Made by a program: the position numbers and the translations under genes. From positions 1 through 64,000 of the forward strand of contig NZ_JASISW010000004.1 in NCBI RefSeq assembly GCF_030063335.1: 64,000 nucleotides of DNA. The letters run 5' to 3'. Numbering within the stretch: position 1 is the first letter of the stretch; each line of letters begins with the position of its first letter. The notes beneath the pieces were generated by a model that searched no databases, was not told the DNA's origin, and was given only the letters and a program-made list of their open reading frames with translations. This DNA comes from Rhodococcus sp. G-MC3. GTDB lineage: Bacteria; Actinomycetota; Actinomycetes; Mycobacteriales; Mycobacteriaceae. Shown here one piece after another: positions 14,618-21,368 of the stretch.

Positions 14618-15262
14618 CTATCGCGACTCGAACACCGCAATAGCAATCTGAACGCGATTGACCGAGCCGAGTTTCGACAGAATCCGCGAGACATAGGTTT
14701 TGACCGTCGCAACACTCATGTACAGAGCAGCGCTGATCTCGGCGTTGGAAAAACCCTGGGACACGGCGACGGCCACCTCGCGTTCGCGATCGGTCAACGC
14801 CGTCAACGCGTCACCGGTTCTTGCGGAACCCGAGCGCGAATCATGCTCACGCCACGAACGAACAAGCTTTGCGACGGCGGAGGGCGACAGCATCGACTCA
14901 CCGTCGCGCACCCGCTTCACTGCATCGACGATGTCCCGCGGAGGCGTGTCTTTCAGCAGGAAACCGTTGGCACCCAAACGAAGTGCCCGAAGAAGATATT
15001 CATCGGTATCGAACGTGGTCAGCACGATCACGGCAGGCGCATTCAGGACCGCGCGCACCACCTCGGTTGCGGCGAGTCCGTCCATGACAGGCATTCTTAT
15101 GTCCATGAGCACCACGTCGGGACGGAGCTTTCGGACCGATTCAATTGCCTTCTCCCCGTCGGCCGCTTCACCGACGACGCGAATGCCGCTGTCGGACCGC
15201 AGGATCATCGAGAGCCCCGACCGAACGAGAGCATCGTCGTCGACGAGAAGAACGTCGATCAT
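14618..15262 (-). CDS. NarL/LuxR-family response regulator
   Basis: The protein has 214 residues from ATG 15262, which overlaps the upstream kinase stop as ATGA; ATG 15271 is an alternative. The receiver domain has the acidic pair in VLLVDDD, the phospho-acceptor Asp in VVLMDIRMP, Thr in VLTTFD and Lys in FLLKDT. The C-terminal LuxR-type HTH reads LTDREREVAVAVSQG, then the ATVKTYVSRILSKL recognition helix. It is the output partner of the histidine kinase immediately upstream, in an operon with a YqeB-like membrane protein. The signal and target genes are unknown. Its stop lies six bases from the convergent Ser/Thr kinase stop. Confidence 0.93.
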   Translation of the reverse strand: MIDVLLVDDDALVRSGLSMILRSDSGIRVVGEAADGEKAIESVRKLRPDVVLMDIRMPVMDGLAATEVVRAVLNAPAVIVLTTFDTDEYLLRALRLGANGFLLKDTPPRDIVDAVKRVRDGESMLSPSAVAKLVRSWREHDSRSGSARTGDALTALTDREREVAVAVSQGFSNAEISAALYMSVATVKTYVSRILSKLGSVNRVQIAIAVFESR

Positions 15263-16422
15263 CCCGGCCATGGTAACCACGCTTCCAGTACGTAACGAGG
15301 TAAGCCGTCGCAGAACCGAAGTCCGTATTCGAGCCTCCCGCCGGCAAGGGTCACACGTTCGGTCAGGCCGATCAGGCCCGAATGGGCACCCGGCACTTCG
15401 GTGGGACGGGTCCCGAGCGCGTTCGTCAGCGACACCCTCAGATACTCGTCCGCGGTCCACAGCCGCACCAGCACAGCAGTATCCACCGCGTGCTTGCACG
15501 TATTGGTGAGACCCTCCTGCACAACCCGAAACATGGTCCTGCTCGACGTTGCCGAAATCTCGGCGTTCACGGGAATATCGTTTCGGTAATCGACGACAAC
15601 GCCCACGGCTCGCACCTCCTCCACTATCGACGGTATATCCCCGATTCCCGACGTGGGCCGCATAAGCGGGCTGTCATCCTCGGACCGAAGCACTCCAAGA
15701 ATTTCGCGGAGATCGTCCAAGGCTCCGTGCGCGCTCGCACGAATTGTCGCCGCAATAGTTTCGATCTCCGCTCTGTCGGCATCGACGCGCACCTCCAACG
15801 CACCCGCATGGAGACTGACCATCGAAATCCTGTGGGCCAACGCGTCGTGCATCTCTCGGGCGATGCGCTCTCGTTCCTGCCCGCGAACACGGTCGGCACG
15901 CTCTAGTGCTGCGGCCTCGGCTCGCTCGGCTCGCTCTCGCAGAGAGTCGATGACTTCTCTACGCGCTTTGACTACGAAGCCCCACGTCAACGGGATACTG
16001 AGAAGCGCAAGACTGAGGATGCCCGCGGACAGAAACGCCTCGCCGTCCATGAACACACCGGCGAACACCAGCGACGCCGCAAGATGGAGAACGGAAACGG
16101 GAACGGACGCCTGCCATGATCTGCGCGATGCCATGGTGTAGATCGCTACCAGTTCGGCCCCGCCGACGGCGTCGGTGAATATCGTCGGCAACGCCAAGGC
16201 GAGCGCGACAGCGATCGGCCACCGTCGACGCCACCACAGCAATATGATCGACACGATCGAAAGAACGACCACCACAATGGCTTTGGAATCCGAGAACACG
16301 CCGCGGTCCAGACCGTCGGCGATCACGAGCACAGCGATGAATACGGAAAATAACGTCGCTGCGATATCCCACACTCGATCTCGGTGCGAGCTGCGAAGAT
16401 TTGACGGCAGACGCGAATTCAC
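15259..16422 (-). CDS. Sensor histidine kinase, HisKA_3 (NarX/DesK) type
   Basis: The 387-residue protein has about six hydrophobic segments in residues 20-165 without a large periplasmic loop, which suggests sensing within or at the membrane. A coiled coil (EALRERAERAEAA type) follows. The phospho-acceptor motif is ERERIAREMHDALAHRI, with His in EMHD, and the HATPase domain has the N box VVQEGLTNTCKHA and the G box GLIGLTERV. This is the standard layout of HisKA_3 kinases paired with NarL-type regulators. The gene overlaps the YqeB-like gene upstream and the response regulator downstream by four bases each, so the three are one transcription and translation unit. Confidence 0.93.
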   Translation of the reverse strand: MNSRLPSNLRSSHRDRVWDIAATLFSVFIAVLVIADGLDRGVFSDSKAIVVVVLSIVSIILLWWRRRWPIAVALALALPTIFTDAVGGAELVAIYTMASRRSWQASVPVSVLHLAASLVFAGVFMDGEAFLSAGILSLALLSIPLTWGFVVKARREVIDSLRERAERAEAAALERADRVRGQERERIAREMHDALAHRISMVSLHAGALEVRVDADRAEIETIAATIRASAHGALDDLREILGVLRSEDDSPLMRPTSGIGDIPSIVEEVRAVGVVVDYRNDIPVNAEISATSSRTMFRVVQEGLTNTCKHAVDTAVLVRLWTADEYLRVSLTNALGTRPTEVPGAHSGLIGLTERVTLAGGRLEYGLRFCDGLPRYVLEAWLPWPG

Positions 16423-17105
16423 CGTCGCACCAAAGGCCGCCAGTACTGACGGGATTTGCTGTCTCGCACGACGATTCCATTTCGATCCAACTCGCGACGC
16501 AGCTCTCGGGCGTCAGCGGTGGCCTTCTTTTCCAAGAACTTGGCTCGCGCGCGCATCACCGCGTTGATCTCGTCGGGCAGAGACGGTGTATCCGGAACCC
16601 AGCGGCGGTACAGCTCACTGTACGGGTCTTCCTTCACGAACGAGTAACCGTGCGAGACGAACGCCTGCTGGACCGCAGCAGATCTTTCTTCGACGGGTGT
16701 GCGGACGATCTGGCGAGACGAGCCGTCGAGAACGACAAGTTCCTTACCGTCCAGGAAGACCGTCGCCGCGGCGGACCTGGAGATCTCGCGGGTCTCGCCG
16801 TTTTCGGTGAGCCGAATCCCTACCTCGGCGACCACGATCTTGACACTGTTGTAAAGAACGAACGCAACAAAGGCGGCACCCAGCATCACCCCGCCGACGG
16901 TGAACACATACCGCACCCACCAATCAGACCACGATGAGACGAGTTCGAGCGGCCCCTGAAACGGCACCCATGCAAGCGTCGTAGCCCAACCCGCGACCCG
17001 AGGGAGGAAGAATCCGAGTAGCCCGCCCACGACCGGCGCGACGACGCCGAGGAACACCCGATCTCCGACGGAAAACCACAGCACCGATTCGTTCTTGTCC
17101 GACAT
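16419..17105 (-). CDS. YqeB-family membrane protein
   Basis: The 228-residue protein has two long hydrophobic hairpins in the N-terminal third (about 15-50 and 65-90), around a WVPFQGPLELVSSW segment. A cytoplasmic part follows with VFLDGKELVVLD, a conserved HGYSF, YRRWVPDTPSLP and a C-terminal RDSKSRQYWR. These features match actinobacterial proteins annotated YqeB, whose function is unknown. Being first in an operon with a histidine kinase and response regulator, linked by ATGA overlap, it may act as an accessory sensor or be a target of the system; that is inference. The short gap of about 55 bases from esrR shows no clear terminator, so read-through from the esrSR operon is possible. Confidence 0.8.
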   Translation of the reverse strand: MSDKNESVLWFSVGDRVFLGVVAPVVGGLLGFFLPRVAGWATTLAWVPFQGPLELVSSWSDWWVRYVFTVGGVMLGAAFVAFVLYNSVKIVVAEVGIRLTENGETREISRSAAATVFLDGKELVVLDGSSRQIVRTPVEERSAAVQQAFVSHGYSFVKEDPYSELYRRWVPDTPSLPDEINAVMRARAKFLEKKATADARELRRELDRNGIVVRDSKSRQYWRPLVRR

Positions 17106-17161: not shown

Positions 17162-17809
17162 TCAATCGATTCGACGCTTGTGCGCCCATCTCGTCAACGC
17201 ATTTCGGTTCGATTGCTGAGTCTTGCGCAACACGTTCGAAGCATGGGTTTCGACGGTCTTCACCGAGATGAACAGGTCCTCGGCGATCTCGCGATAGGTG
17301 TAGCCGCGCGCCAGAAGCCGAAGAACTTCCAGCTCACGTGGTGTCAGCGAGTCCAGTTCCGGATCCAACGGCGGTTCCGGGGCGTTCGATTTGCCGGTGA
17401 ACGAGTCGAGAACGAATCCGGCGAGCCGAGGCGAGAACACAGCGTCTCCCCCGGCGACTCGTCGAACACCGTCGGCGAGTTCCGAACCGGAAATTGTTTT
17501 GGTGACATAACCGCGTGCTCCTGCGCGGATGACCGCGATGACATCCTCGGCGGCGTCGGACACCGACAGTGCCAGGCACACCGGACCCGGAGATATCTTG
17601 CCGAGAACGGCAACCCCGCCGCCATCGGGCATGTGCACGTCGAGCAGAACGACGTCGGGTTTCGTCGCCTCGATTCCGGCGACCGCGTCTGCGACGGCAC
17701 CCGCCTCTCCGACGACCTCGATATCGGATTCACGGCCCAACTCGGCACGGACACCGGACCGAAAGACTGCGTGATCATCGACGAGAAAGACACGAAAGGT
17801 GTCGGTCAC
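17162..17809 (-). CDS. esrR: NarL/LuxR-family response regulator, EsrR-like
   Basis: The protein has 215 residues from GTG 17809, which overlaps the sensor kinase stop (GTGA). The receiver domain shows VFLVDDHAVFRSG, the phospho-acceptor Asp in VVLLDVHMPDGGG, and YVTKTISG. The C-terminal LuxR HTH is LTPRELEVLRLLARG, then SVKTVETHASNVLRK. With a PspC-domain histidine kinase upstream and a divergent PspC membrane protein nearby, this matches the EsrISR three-component envelope-stress system described in Corynebacterium glutamicum, which also lies beside the gua genes. Two copies of a palindrome in front of esrS and esrI are its likely binding sites (inferred). The name is transferred by architecture and location. 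Confidence 0.85.
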   Translation of the reverse strand: MTDTFRVFLVDDHAVFRSGVRAELGRESDIEVVGEAGAVADAVAGIEATKPDVVLLDVHMPDGGGVAVLGKISPGPVCLALSVSDAAEDVIAVIRAGARGYVTKTISGSELADGVRRVAGGDAVFSPRLAGFVLDSFTGKSNAPEPPLDPELDSLTPRELEVLRLLARGYTYREIAEDLFISVKTVETHASNVLRKTQQSNRNALTRWAHKRRID

Positions 17810-19113
17810 CTGGGCTGCTCCTGCGGTGTCGGTTGCTCTACGGGTGTCACGTCTGCGGGGACTGTGTGGGTTCGGGACTGACCGACACCACCGTTGCGCG
17901 GCATCAGGATTCGAACTTCGGTACCCTTCCCGACCTGGGAGCGTACCGATACTTCGCCGCCGCGGCGTTCGATCCTCGCGCGTATGGACTTGGCGAGTCC
18001 CTGTCGATCCACCGGCACGACGTTTTCGTCGAAGCCGGTCCCTCGATCGCGGACGAACACCGAGACCTGCTCGGCTTCCGTTTCGGCGAACAAGTCGATG
18101 TTGGTCTCTCCCGAATGCTTCGCGGCGTTGACCAATGCCTCCCGGGTGGCACCGAGCAGTGCTGTGAAATGCTCCCGAGACAGCCCAGCGTCGGAATCCT
18201 CGGCCGACAATTGGACGTCGCCGACGGTGATCGGGCGGACGGTGACACCGTGTTGATCCTCGACCTCGCCCGCGATCGTCTTGAGTGCTTCGGCCAACGA
18301 CGAGTGGTCGGGCTCCCCGCCCTCGAACAACCACTTCCGCAGTTCGCGTTCCTGCCCTCTGGCGAGCCGCATGACTTCGCCGGGCTGATCGGCCTGCTTC
18401 TGGATGAGAGCAAGTGTCTGCAATACCGAATCGTGTAGGTGCGAGGCGATTTCCTCACGTTCGTCGTTGCGGATGCGTGCCGATCGCTCGGCGTTCAGAG
18501 TTCGCCACATGCGCAGCCACACCGGCACCGTCAGCAAGGCTGCACCGACGAGGGTGACGATCACCGCAAGCAACGACGAACGGACCGATGCGATGTCCAC
18601 GCGAGCCAACACGACGACTCCGAGGCCCAGGACGATCAGCGTTGCACCGCCCACCACCCTCGCCCAGCTGAGAACTGTCGGCTTCTTCGGCATACCGAGC
18701 ACCGACCGCGGGCCTTCGGAATCGAATTCGCGCCACACCAATGCGGCACCGACGATCACAACGACGACGGGCACCAGGACCGACGCCGCGGTACCGTTCA
18801 ACAACCACGCGAGACCAGCCGCGAGCCCCAGCCCGAGCGCAGCGAGCCCGAGGGCCCGCTGACGCTCGGCCGCGCTCGGCCGAGCGATGTCGGCGCCGGC
18901 CGGGGTGAACACCCACAACAGTCCGTACGCGAAAATTCCGGCGCCAGCCATGATGGCCAGCAGCACGAACGCCACTCGGACCTTGAACACGTCGACACCG
19001 AGGTGATCGGCAAGCCCACCTGCTACGCCACCAACGATCCGCCCGCCGCCGCGCCGGTAGAACTTCGCCGGCTCGGCGCCTGGATACGCAGGCATGGGTT
19101 CGACAGGGTGCAC
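17806..19113 (-). CDS. esrS: PspC-domain sensor histidine kinase, EsrS-like
   Basis: The protein has 435 residues from GTG 19113. The frame is open to 19149, but that start lies inside the operator. GTG 19113 has CAGGAT at -12 to -7, as in a leaderless promoter. An N-terminal PspC domain (GGGRIVGGVAGGLADHLGVD) leads into several membrane helices up to about residue 200. The HisKA_3 phospho-acceptor is His227 in HLHDSVLQTLALIQ. The HATPase N box is REALVNAAKHSG and the G region is DRGTGFDENVVP. PspC domains sense membrane stress in related systems. The kinase would phosphorylate the overlapping downstream regulator. Confidence 0.88.
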   Translation of the reverse strand: MHPVEPMPAYPGAEPAKFYRRGGGRIVGGVAGGLADHLGVDVFKVRVAFVLLAIMAGAGIFAYGLLWVFTPAGADIARPSAAERQRALGLAALGLGLAAGLAWLLNGTAASVLVPVVVVIVGAALVWREFDSEGPRSVLGMPKKPTVLSWARVVGGATLIVLGLGVVVLARVDIASVRSSLLAVIVTLVGAALLTVPVWLRMWRTLNAERSARIRNDEREEIASHLHDSVLQTLALIQKQADQPGEVMRLARGQERELRKWLFEGGEPDHSSLAEALKTIAGEVEDQHGVTVRPITVGDVQLSAEDSDAGLSREHFTALLGATREALVNAAKHSGETNIDLFAETEAEQVSVFVRDRGTGFDENVVPVDRQGLAKSIRARIERRGGEVSVRSQVGKGTEVRILMPRNGGVGQSRTHTVPADVTPVEQPTPQEQPR

Positions 19114-19147
19114 GCATCGATCCTGGCACGAATCGGCACCGCGCCGC

Positions 19148-19165
19148 ATCAGGGTCTCCCCTGAT
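19148..19165. promoter_or_regulatory. Palindromic operator upstream of esrSR (copy 1)
   Basis: ATCAGGG-TCTC-CCCTGAT is a perfect 7-bp inverted repeat centred 43.5 bp upstream of the esrS start at 19113. The same arms with the same 4-base spacing occur upstream of esrI. The position fits an activator site overlapping the -35 region of a leaderless promoter whose -10 is CAGGAT. The inferred binding protein is EsrR. Confidence 0.7.
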
Positions 19166-19178
19166 TTATTCGCTCAGA

Positions 19179-19847
19179 TCAGGCGCGCCATTCCGCGGTT
19201 CGCTCCTGAGTTGCTTCGGCCAGCGCTTTTTTGACACCGTCGGCGTCGTAGTCCTTGCCGTAGACGGGAGTGCCCGGGTGCTGACGCCACGACTCGGCGA
19301 GAGTCCCGGCGTCGACAGGATCGAAGCCGAGCGCGTCGACGACGTCGAACACCAGCGACTTGCCTGCACCGTCGGCGCCTGCGACGGGCAGAGCAATGCG
19401 CCCTTCCTCGCCCTTCGGTACACCGCTGCTCAGCAGGTGCTTCCAGTAGATGCCGTTGAACACCTTCACCACATCATCGGCCCGAGAACCGAGATGCTCT
19501 GCTACCCAAACGCTTTCGGGCTTGCCGCCCTCGATATCGGCGATCAACCCATCTCGCTGTTGCGGGTAGTAGTTGTTGGTCTCGATGATCGGAGCTCCCG
19601 GCTTCGCCGATTCGACGATGTTCGACGGAAGATCAGGCGTGTTCTTCTGCGGAATGCTCACGATCACGAGATCTGCGTCCTGGGCAGCCTCGGTGTTCCA
19701 CACTGCCTGCGCGCCTGTCTCGGCGGCGAGCTCCGACAGTGTCTCGGGTGCGCGGGAGTTGGACACCTTCACCTCGTGACCGAGCGCTGCAAGCTTTCGC
19801 GTCAGTGTTCCGCCGATGGCCCCGGCCCCGATGATCCCAATCTTCAT
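19179..19847 (-). CDS. NADPH-dependent F420 reductase-like dinucleotide-binding protein
   Basis: The 222-residue protein starts with IGIIGAGAIGGTLTRKLA, an N-terminal Rossmann NAD(P)-binding loop, followed by KVSNSRAPETL. This is the layout of the F420-dependent NADP oxidoreductase family (Fno-like). The second half has VWVAEHLGSR, FNGIYWKHLL and a VAGADGAGKSLVFDVVDALG segment typical of the family. It is soluble and cytoplasmic. The ATG has GAGGGG six bases upstream. It sits between the divergently transcribed parts of the Esr system, on the esrS strand, and the copy-2 palindrome lies about 80-110 bp upstream of its start. Whether it really uses F420 or another cofactor or substrate cannot be told from the sequence. 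Confidence 0.8.
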   Translation of the reverse strand: MKIGIIGAGAIGGTLTRKLAALGHEVKVSNSRAPETLSELAAETGAQAVWNTEAAQDADLVIVSIPQKNTPDLPSNIVESAKPGAPIIETNNYYPQQRDGLIADIEGGKPESVWVAEHLGSRADDVVKVFNGIYWKHLLSSGVPKGEEGRIALPVAGADGAGKSLVFDVVDALGFDPVDAGTLAESWRQHPGTPVYGKDYDADGVKKALAEATQERTAEWRA

Positions 19848-19924
19848 TACTGACCCCTCACATTCGGAAAGTAGTTACCTCTACTACCAAGCCGAGGAGC
19901 TCTGCGATCATTCCTGAATTCCAG

Positions 19925-19956
19925 GCAAAACATCAGGGCGATCCCTGATGTTTTGC
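19925..19956. promoter_or_regulatory. Palindromic operator upstream of esrI (copy 2, extended)
   Basis: Arms of 14 bp (GCAAAACATCAGGG and its exact complement) flank the 4-base centre CGAT. The inner ATCAGGG-N4-CCCTGAT is identical to copy 1 before esrS. The centre lies 42.5 bp upstream of the esrI ATG at 19983, which has CACGAT at -12 to -7. The site also lies in the divergent promoter region of the F420 reductase-like gene and may control both. Confidence 0.75.
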
Positions 19957-19982
19957 GGGACACGAAACGCCACGATGGTTCT

Positions 19983-21368
19983 ATGAGCAACGCAACCGTC
20001 TCCGAACAGCTCCAACAGATGTGGCGCACTCGTCCGTACCGGTTGCCTCAGCGAGGCCACGTCGCAGGAGTCGCAGCAGGCATCGGATACCGCTACGGTG
20101 TCGATCCTGTCCTGATTCGAGTCGCCCTTGTCGTCGGCACCATATTCGGCGGCGCAGGCATCGTCCTGTATCTCGCTGCGTGGCTGCTGTTCAGCAAAGC
20201 CGGTGACTCCGCCTCCCCAGCAGAGTCACTCATGGGGAAAGGCAACAGCTCCGAATCCAACACCAAGGTGGTGGTCCTCGTCGTTGCGCTGATCATCGCT
20301 TTGTCGACTATCGGCCCGGTGGGCATAGGACTCGGCGGATCGGGAGTGATCAGCATGCTGGCCTTGCTGGCGGGCCTGTGGCTGCTCCATCAGCGGCAAC
20401 CCGAGCCTCCCGAGTTCCTTCCCGGGGGCGCGCAGGTCTACGCCCAGCAAGGATTCCCGATGTCGTTCGATTCCCCATACAGCCCGCACACTGCGAACCA
20501 TTGGACAGGTGCCCAGTATCGTCCGCCGAATTACGAAGCCCGAGTCTCGTCGTACATTCCGTCCGCGTACTCCCCCTACACGACTCTTCCCAAGACCTAC
20601 GTTCCGTCGCCACCTTCGGAGACAATGGCGTCACAGAGCGAGGTGAATCTGAGCAAGGCTGGACCCGAGTCGGTGGCCGCAGCAGGACCGACGCCGCCGT
20701 CCTGGGATCCGCTCGGCGTAGCGCCGTTCGCGTGGGATCTTCCCGAGCCTGCAACGGTGTACGTACCCGAGGCAACCGAGAAGAAGGAGCGGTCGCGGTG
20801 GACATCGAGCTTCATCGGCCTCGCACTCGTCGCCGCTGCTGTGACCGCCGGAATATCCGCAGCGACCGGAGCCGACTGGCTCTCGCCCGCGCGTATCGGA
20901 GCTGTCGCCCTGGCTGTAGTGGCGATCGGACTGATCCTCGGCGCCTTCATGCGCAAGGGATACGGGCTCCTTGTCATCACCGGCCCGCTGCTGGCGTTCG
21001 TGGTCTTCGCATCGATCCTGGGGCCTGTCTCCTTCGACAGCCAGTTCGCCGGAGAGCAGCACTACGCACCGACGGCCGTTGCCGATCTACGGCCGTCCTA
21101 CACCGTGCAGGGAGGCGATCTCCAACTCGACCTCCGCGGGCTCGATCTCACCGAGAACAAGGCCATCGCCGTCGACGTAACCGCAGGAAATGCAACCATC
21201 TTGATTCCCGACTCGATGAACATCCGCGCCGACTGCAGTGCGGTCGCGGCCGAAACCAAATGCGGCCCCAACGACACTGTCCAGCAGGGCAATTCGCCCG
21301 ACAACACGACGGTTCTCACGATCGACGGATCCGCTCGGGCAGGCAATCTCGAGATCGTCCGTGGCTGA
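19983..21368 (+). CDS. esrI: PspC-domain membrane protein, EsrI-like
   Basis: The protein has 461 residues from ATG 19983; the TTG at 19953 lies inside the operator. The N-terminal PspC domain (RGHVAGVAAGIGYRYGVDPVLIRVALV) is followed by two or three membrane helices. A long Pro/Tyr/Ser-rich linker spans about 140-270. A second membrane bundle lies at about 280-350, and the C-terminal beta-rich domain resembles LiaF/DUF2154 proteins (RPSYTVQGGDLQLDLRGLDL). In the C. glutamicum EsrISR system the PspC protein EsrI restrains signalling by EsrS until the envelope is stressed; a similar role is inferred here. The small membrane protein 60 bases downstream is probably co-transcribed. Confidence 0.82.
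   Translation: MSNATVSEQLQQMWRTRPYRLPQRGHVAGVAAGIGYRYGVDPVLIRVALVVGTIFGGAGIVLYLAAWLLFSKAGDSASPAESLMGKGNSSESNTKVVVLVVALIIALSTIGPVGIGLGGSGVISMLALLAGLWLLHQRQPEPPEFLPGGAQVYAQQGFPMSFDSPYSPHTANHWTGAQYRPPNYEARVSSYIPSAYSPYTTLPKTYVPSPPSETMASQSEVNLSKAGPESVAAAGPTPPSWDPLGVAPFAWDLPEPATVYVPEATEKKERSRWTSSFIGLALVAAAVTAGISAATGADWLSPARIGAVALAVVAIGLILGAFMRKGYGLLVITGPLLAFVVFASILGPVSFDSQFAGEQHYAPTAVADLRPSYTVQGGDLQLDLRGLDLTENKAIAVDVTAGNATILIPDSMNIRADCSAVAAETKCGPNDTVQQGNSPDNTTVLTIDGSARAGNLEIVRG

Follow-up and report, generated by a model that had tools for sequence, protein, structure and literature searches.

The EsrISR three-component system of Corynebacterium glutamicum is encoded by cg0706/cg0707/cg0709 (PMC7283102, PMC6975037, PMC3353115). 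In the excerpts of the cited papers, to which all statements about them here are limited, the system directly regulates esrI-esrSR and ABC transporters (PMC7283102), is activated by antibiotics that inhibit the lipid II cycle, and has esrI and cg1325, a putative stress responsive transcriptional regulator, in its regulon (PMC6975037). Here we examine a 64,000-nucleotide stretch of the Rhodococcus sp. G-MC3 genome (the window), whose genes match this actinobacterial envelope-stress system by their predicted domains: Pfam searches with the window genes found all three EsrISR traits, namely a PspC-domain kinase (EsrS), an adjoining LuxR/NarL-type regulator (EsrR), and a divergently encoded PspC protein (EsrI). 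C. glutamicum EsrI also has a PspC domain, and cg1325 is a PspC protein. As described in the excerpts, the C. glutamicum system resembles the window in combining a PspC-domain kinase and a LuxR-type regulator with EsrI as a third component, and it resembles the regulon predicted below in comprising its own locus, ABC transporters, and the further gene cg1325. The window differs in carrying an F420-reductase-like gene between the two esr promoters. The esrS and esrI promoters each carry a copy of one palindrome, and we consider it very likely that these twin palindromes are operators of EsrR in a class-II activator position, through which EsrR would activate its own expression and induce EsrI.

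Among other described systems, LiaFSR and VraTSR of Firmicutes resemble EsrISR in that a kinase and a regulator act with membrane partners in envelope stress (excerpts of PMC11237479). Their kinases, unlike EsrS, are not described with a PspC domain. LiaFSR and VraTSR are autoregulated, have a NarL-type regulator, and use operator sequences different from the EsrR motif; BldM of Streptomyces is a member of the NarL family. BldM resembles our reading of EsrR as a response regulator acting at a 16-bp (base pair) palindrome, TCACcCgnncGgGTGA, and differs from it in operator sequence and in its developmental role (excerpts of PMC4125116). A preliminary description of the window knew of no earlier description of the motif. 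We found no statement of an EsrR operator motif, its reach, its geometry, or its polarity (at which no search was aimed) in the excerpts of the open-licence literature searched, and the primary EsrISR study (Kleine et al. 2017), which lay outside that search, may give a motif. However, autoregulation of esrI-esrSR has already been reported in C. glutamicum (PMC7283102), which makes the idea of a regulon less novel than that description implied. The EsrISR system and its autoregulation are known, and we rate the definition of the operator as the useful new part.

Twin palindromes upstream of esrS and esrI

The palindrome ATCAGGG-N4-CCCTGAT is centered at 19156.5 on the esrS side and at 19940.5 on the esrI side, 43.5 and 42.5 bp upstream of the respective start codons (the G of GTG at 19113 on the minus strand and the A of ATG at 19983). 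A re-reading of the sequence reproduced all of these values, which the preliminary description had given together with a CA-x-GAT element at -12 to -7 of both genes. The 5.6-Mb genome contains just two exact copies of the motif, those of esrS and esrI, against approximately 0.02 expected from base composition. With two or fewer mismatches, 16 places match genome-wide versus 1 for the reversed pattern, and allowing R/Y at the fourth position yields 3 exact copies versus 0 in the reversed control. Within the window, matches with up to three mismatches show no excess (4 versus a shuffle mean of 2.44); since that count stays within chance, it is the two perfect copies that carry the weight. Palindromes built of a G run and a C run are common in high-GC genomes, and the two sites might be taken for chance or neutral repeats, or for terminator-like elements with no regulatory role. 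The small number of copies expected, the reversed-pattern controls (0 or 1 per search), and the conservation across the order at similar spacing described below make such an origin scarcely credible.

Conservation, spacing, and polarity of the operator

We scanned 61 genomes for the exact motif, 37 from the same genus (the window's own genome included) and 24 from other genera, with the reversed pattern as a control. The motif is present in 29 of the 61, all of them among the 37 same-genus genomes, with two copies in 26, one in 2, and three in 1; the reversed control gave 0 in each. The third exact copy in the last of these (L041, G028:C1:459703) lies near or inside a 239-amino-acid reading frame. 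Seven of the eight same-genus genomes without the exact motif have relaxed versions of it (L043-L049), and the kinase match of the eighth (G018) starts at the edge of a contig. As a marker beyond the genus the exact motif was discarded (0 of 24 other-genus genomes). Because it fails there, we used a relaxed operator, ATC[AG]GGG-N4/5-CCC[CT]GAT, scored out of 14 arm positions with dinucleotide shuffles as the control.

A search of 298 genomes sampled from the order gave EsrS matches (E <= 1e-45) in 235 of them, representing 65 of 76 genera. Among the genomes with no match, 43 stand outside the listing, and the 20 listed all come from one genus (g23) of the same family, which suggests a loss of EsrS in that genus. 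We analyzed 81 EsrS loci from 13 families (the fragment L068 was left out), of which 77 have a divergent EsrI-like match. A relaxed operator scoring at least 12 of 14 occurs in 75 of these loci, at least 13 in 65, and 14 in 26, versus 2.05, 0.15, and 0 in shuffles; the spacer is four nucleotides (N4) in 94 sites, N5 in 32, N3 in 4, and N6 in 0, versus approximately 1 each in shuffles. Better tests of the relaxed motif are the 40 loci of later fetches and the 80 named loci, the latter being the best 80 of 552 relatives and a largely separate set (at least 6 genomes are common to both sets) that includes R. erythropolis (L222) and R. jostii (L233). In a count made without a shuffle control, at least one relaxed site is present in 77 of the 80 named loci and two sites in 64; a site is found in all Corynebacterium (19/19), Rhodococcus (16/16), and Gordonia (6/6) loci and in 26 of 29 Nocardia loci.

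Exact matches to the relaxed pattern co-occur with EsrS. Nineteen such sites are present in 24 EsrS-bearing genomes hand-picked for genus variety (approximately 144 Mb), 13 of which have the pattern, whereas the reversed control gave 0; the 24 genomes that lack a full EsrS match (approximately 122 Mb; 20 of g23 and 4 others) have a single site between them. A comparison of related Esr loci had been proposed in the preliminary description as a check, and the motif proved to be conserved in them at a similar distance from the start codons and rare in genomes that lack EsrS. Because paired sites at a similar start distance recur in many relatives, binding by EsrR is very probable. Another regulator could bind the palindromes instead, for example the second NarL-type response regulator at 14618-15265, which belongs to the same family and whose gene is separated from esrR by approximately 1.9 kb and from operator 1 by 3.9 kb. 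We consider this highly improbable: the sites co-occur with EsrS, a regulator similar to this neighbor lies near esrR in 2 of 156 Esr loci with matches while the operators persist (the search reached approximately 3 kb past esrR in named loci and 0.5 kb in the remaining loci), and the DNA-binding domain of EsrR is strongly conserved (150 fetched loci plus the window) and differs from that of the neighbor. The neighboring two-component system, rare near other esr loci, was not favored as the source of the binder. It includes a HisKA_3 kinase and lies with a YqeB-like bPH_10 protein just downstream of esrR (14618-17105); matches to the genes of this segment near other esr loci are few.

For the spacing analysis, 114 of 161 loci qualified by having two sites scoring at least 12 and a divergent esrI within 1.2 kb. 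Counted over distinct sequences, esrS has its first possible in-frame start 33-36 nucleotides (nt) past the operator in 57 of 75 cases with N4 and 28 of 29 with N5, and esrI has its own at 33-35 nt in 48 of 81 with N4 and 18 of 23 with N5. In another 32 of the 81 esrI N4 sequences an in-frame start occurs earlier, at 25-26 nt, and in the examples viewed this is the ATG within GATG beside the -10 element; because such earlier in-frame ATGs occur, these counts refer to first possible rather than known starts. Of 104 distinct esrS-side operators, 91 are followed by a -10-like element, always 21-23 nt past the site and most commonly at 22 nt with N4 (39/62) and at 21 nt with N5 (20/29), and the distance from operator center to -10 therefore stays at approximately 31 bp. 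The centers of the two operators are 24-826 bp apart (25-26 bp in 25 of 114 loci, and 779-826 bp where an F420-like gene lies between them). Because this distance varies while the start distances stay similar, each site seems to go with its own gene and not with a fixed partner site; cooperative looping between sites so variably separated is not favored.

In the window, the F420-like gene intervenes between esrS and esrI, which adjoin in relatives that lack it. It is found between the esr promoters, in the same direction as esrS, in 8 of the 14 loci L069-L082 and is absent there in 6 (L071, L072, L073, L080, L081, and L082). The earlier suggestion that palindrome copy 2 may also affect this gene is not supported: some members of the genus lack the gene at this place, and the distance from copy 2 to its ATG is 84 bp, which does not fit the conserved spacing. 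With the F420-like gene in between, each operator is still close to its own gene.

The operator also has a polarity, shared by both promoters despite their opposite orientations (counts from 87 and 83 distinct sites). The promoter-distal half reads nTCAGGG, with A as the fourth base in 76% (esrS) and 99% (esrI) of sites and A as the first base in just 53-55%. The promoter-proximal half reads CCC[CT]GATG at both promoters, with the outermost T in 99-100% of sites; the G that follows GAT (83-87%) is the sole strongly conserved base beyond the 7-bp arms. This polarity was not imposed by the scoring, because the scoring pattern is symmetric. As the preliminary description had noted, operator 2 sits in a longer palindrome with perfect 14-bp arms (19925-19938 and 19943-19956) in this genome, but these extended arms are not conserved in relatives.

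A proposed model of activation by EsrR

The position and conservation of the sites lead us to propose that phosphorylated EsrR would bind each palindrome, probably as a dimer, with each divergent gene served by its own operator. A -10 element at 21-23 nt after the site, combined with the usual 17-bp spacer, would place the start of the -35 hexamer where the palindrome ends, and the promoter-side half CCC[CT]GATG of an operator centered near -42 would abut the -35 region. Class-II activators contact sigma region 4, the model case being the lux box of LuxR at -42.5, and a dimer at the palindrome would be expected to touch sigma region 4 in the same way. The distances from the operator to the putative -10 element and to the start codon, both counted from sequence, fall within a narrow range. 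EsrR would then recruit RNA polymerase to a weak -10 element, and the messenger RNA (mRNA) would start at or beside the start codon. The first base of both -10 hexamers in the window is C rather than T, which fits an activator-dependent promoter. The result would be positive autoregulation of EsrS/EsrR, together with an induction of the inhibitor EsrI that would close a negative feedback loop. Conservation, spacing, and co-occurrence with EsrS thus support the earlier proposal of a shared EsrR operator at the esrS and esrI promoters; activation and leaderless transcription are suggested by the position of the sites.

Because the operator abuts the -35 position, EsrR might bind there and repress both genes by blocking polymerase, and in C. 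glutamicum it is reported to repress nlpC (excerpts of PMC9960051). We judge repression of both genes improbable. The approximately 31 bp between the operator center and the esrS -10-like element is roughly kept across N4 and N5, as activation predicts, and according to the excerpts of PMC6975037, the Esr-regulon genes esrI, cg1325, and rsmP rose on secretion of AmyE, though not on secretion of cutinase.

Several points weigh against the activator model or narrow the evidence for it. The report on nlpC implies that EsrR is not solely an activator. No N4/N5 site scoring at least 12 was found in 6 of the 81 loci (L058, L060, L062, L067, L114, and L119), a group that includes the only two family f15 loci, L062 and L119, as well as L067, which has just a partial kinase match; among the 80 named loci, 3 have no site and 16 lack a second one, and C. 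glutamicum itself is outside the sets of loci compared. In the spacing analysis, 47 of 161 loci did not qualify, and the esrI start falls at 33-35 nt in only 48 of 81 distinct N4 sequences. When the relaxed motif was written, 24 of the 81 loci had already been viewed, and a further 14 (L069-L082) had been chosen for their known exact motif; similarly, the -10 pattern was written from rows already viewed and requires C or G before A. Finally, 11 of the 24 EsrS-bearing genomes have no exact relaxed copy. With these points included, activation by EsrR from both palindromes is the reading we favor.

Further candidate regulon members and features of the locus

Five of the 19 exact relaxed sites lie at the esr locus, and 7 of the other 14 have a usable start codon 34-36 nt downstream. 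By Pfam for part of them, these seven genes encode a DUF1707/LiaF-like_C protein, a cytochrome bd subunit, a phospholipase A2/acyltransferase-like protein, a penicillin-amidase-family protein, a beta-lactamase-family lipoprotein-like protein, a small PspC protein, and an ABC ATPase. The divergent gene at the cytochrome bd site is PadR-like by eye, and the ABC ATPase gene also has an earlier in-frame ATG. Two further exact relaxed sites precede ABC ATPase genes whose leaders are longer, the starts being at 58 and 73 nt, and the last five of the 14 allow no clear assignment.

The third exact relaxed site in the window's own genome (C80:281190) stands before an ABC ATPase gene followed by one for an FtsX/MacB_PCD permease. 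This ATPase is present in 47 of the 61 genomes (E <= 1e-85), and the best 30 loci, all from the same genus, each have a site scoring at least 12 of 14; in 24 of them the distance between the operator center and the aligned ATG is 43-44 bases, and in the other 6, where the alignment started further inside the gene, an upstream ATG was judged by eye. A small pspC gene (C19) is present in 31 of the 61 genomes, and in all 30 loci given a weaker site (11-12 of 14) ends 34-35 nt before its ATG. Since single sites of this kind score below the level that the shuffles exclude, the evidence for this gene consists of spacing and conservation. Based on these sites, the envelope ABC transporter and the small PspC gene are probable further members of the EsrR regulon in this genus.

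Two observations were made beside these genes. Near the ABC-transporter operator there is also a divergent gene of the AP_endonuc_2 family, whose likely ATG is preceded at 7-12 nt by TACTAT (L034:2491-2533), and the operator may affect this gene too, perhaps negatively. In many of the 30 small pspC loci (L265-L294, by eye), a half-site-like TCAGGG or TCGGGG stands just upstream of the weak operator, which suggests a second EsrR contact. Other near-matches in the window's own genome were rejected as further operators. A site with one mismatch (C58:19007) has, by eye, no start codon 33-36 nt off on either side, and three relaxed 12-base sites (C47:22200, C69:196450, and C80:279999) are inside long reading frames. 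At a fourth 12-base site (C12:27061), the ATG and the GTG found 34 nt away open frames of just 17 and 5 codons.

The features of the esr locus are collected in Table 1. The 3' end of esrS overlaps esrR by a few bases, and the PspC domain of EsrS is N-terminal (residues 17-72 by Pfam).

Table 1. Genes and promoter elements of the esr locus, in positions of the window
Feature	Position	Strand	Description
esrR	17162..17812	-	NarL/LuxR-type response regulator; Pfam Response_reg and GerE (searched on 17162-17815)
esrS	17806..19113	-	PspC-domain histidine kinase, GTG start; Pfam PspC (4e-17) and HATPase_c
Putative esrS -10, CAGGAT	19120..19125	-	-12 to -7 from GTG; read from sequence
Operator 1, esrS promoter	19148..19165	-	ATCAGGG-N4-CCCTGAT, exact match; conserved in relatives
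F420-dependent NADP oxidoreductase-like gene	19179..19847	-	Between the two operators; Pfam F420_oxidored (5.4e-20)
Operator 2, esrI promoter	19932..19949	+	ATCAGGG-N4-CCCTGAT, exact match; core conserved in relatives
Putative esrI -10, CACGAT	19971..19976	+	-12 to -7 from ATG; comparable sequences in relatives
esrI	19983..21368	+	PspC-domain membrane protein, divergent from esrSR; Pfam PspC (7.6e-16)
guaA	21716..23305	-	Frequent esrI neighbor, synteny marker; tblastn match in 113 of 161 Esr loci

These results define an operator that can be put to the test, for an envelope stress system that is widespread but has been little studied, and this operator predicts regulon members in genomes where no measurements have been made. 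They also offer a case of two divergent promoters that have moved apart while each keeps its own control site. We give about even chances to a broader proposal, in which an order-wide, largely leaderless EsrR regulon would use one stereotyped promoter with a directional operator, a 4- or 5-bp spacer whose length is offset by the -10 distance, and mRNA beginning at the start codon. If this is true, the operator could serve to trace the regulon in the EsrR-bearing genomes of the order, including envelope genes such as those for ABC transporters, PspC proteins, LiaF-like proteins, and penicillin-amidase-family proteins.

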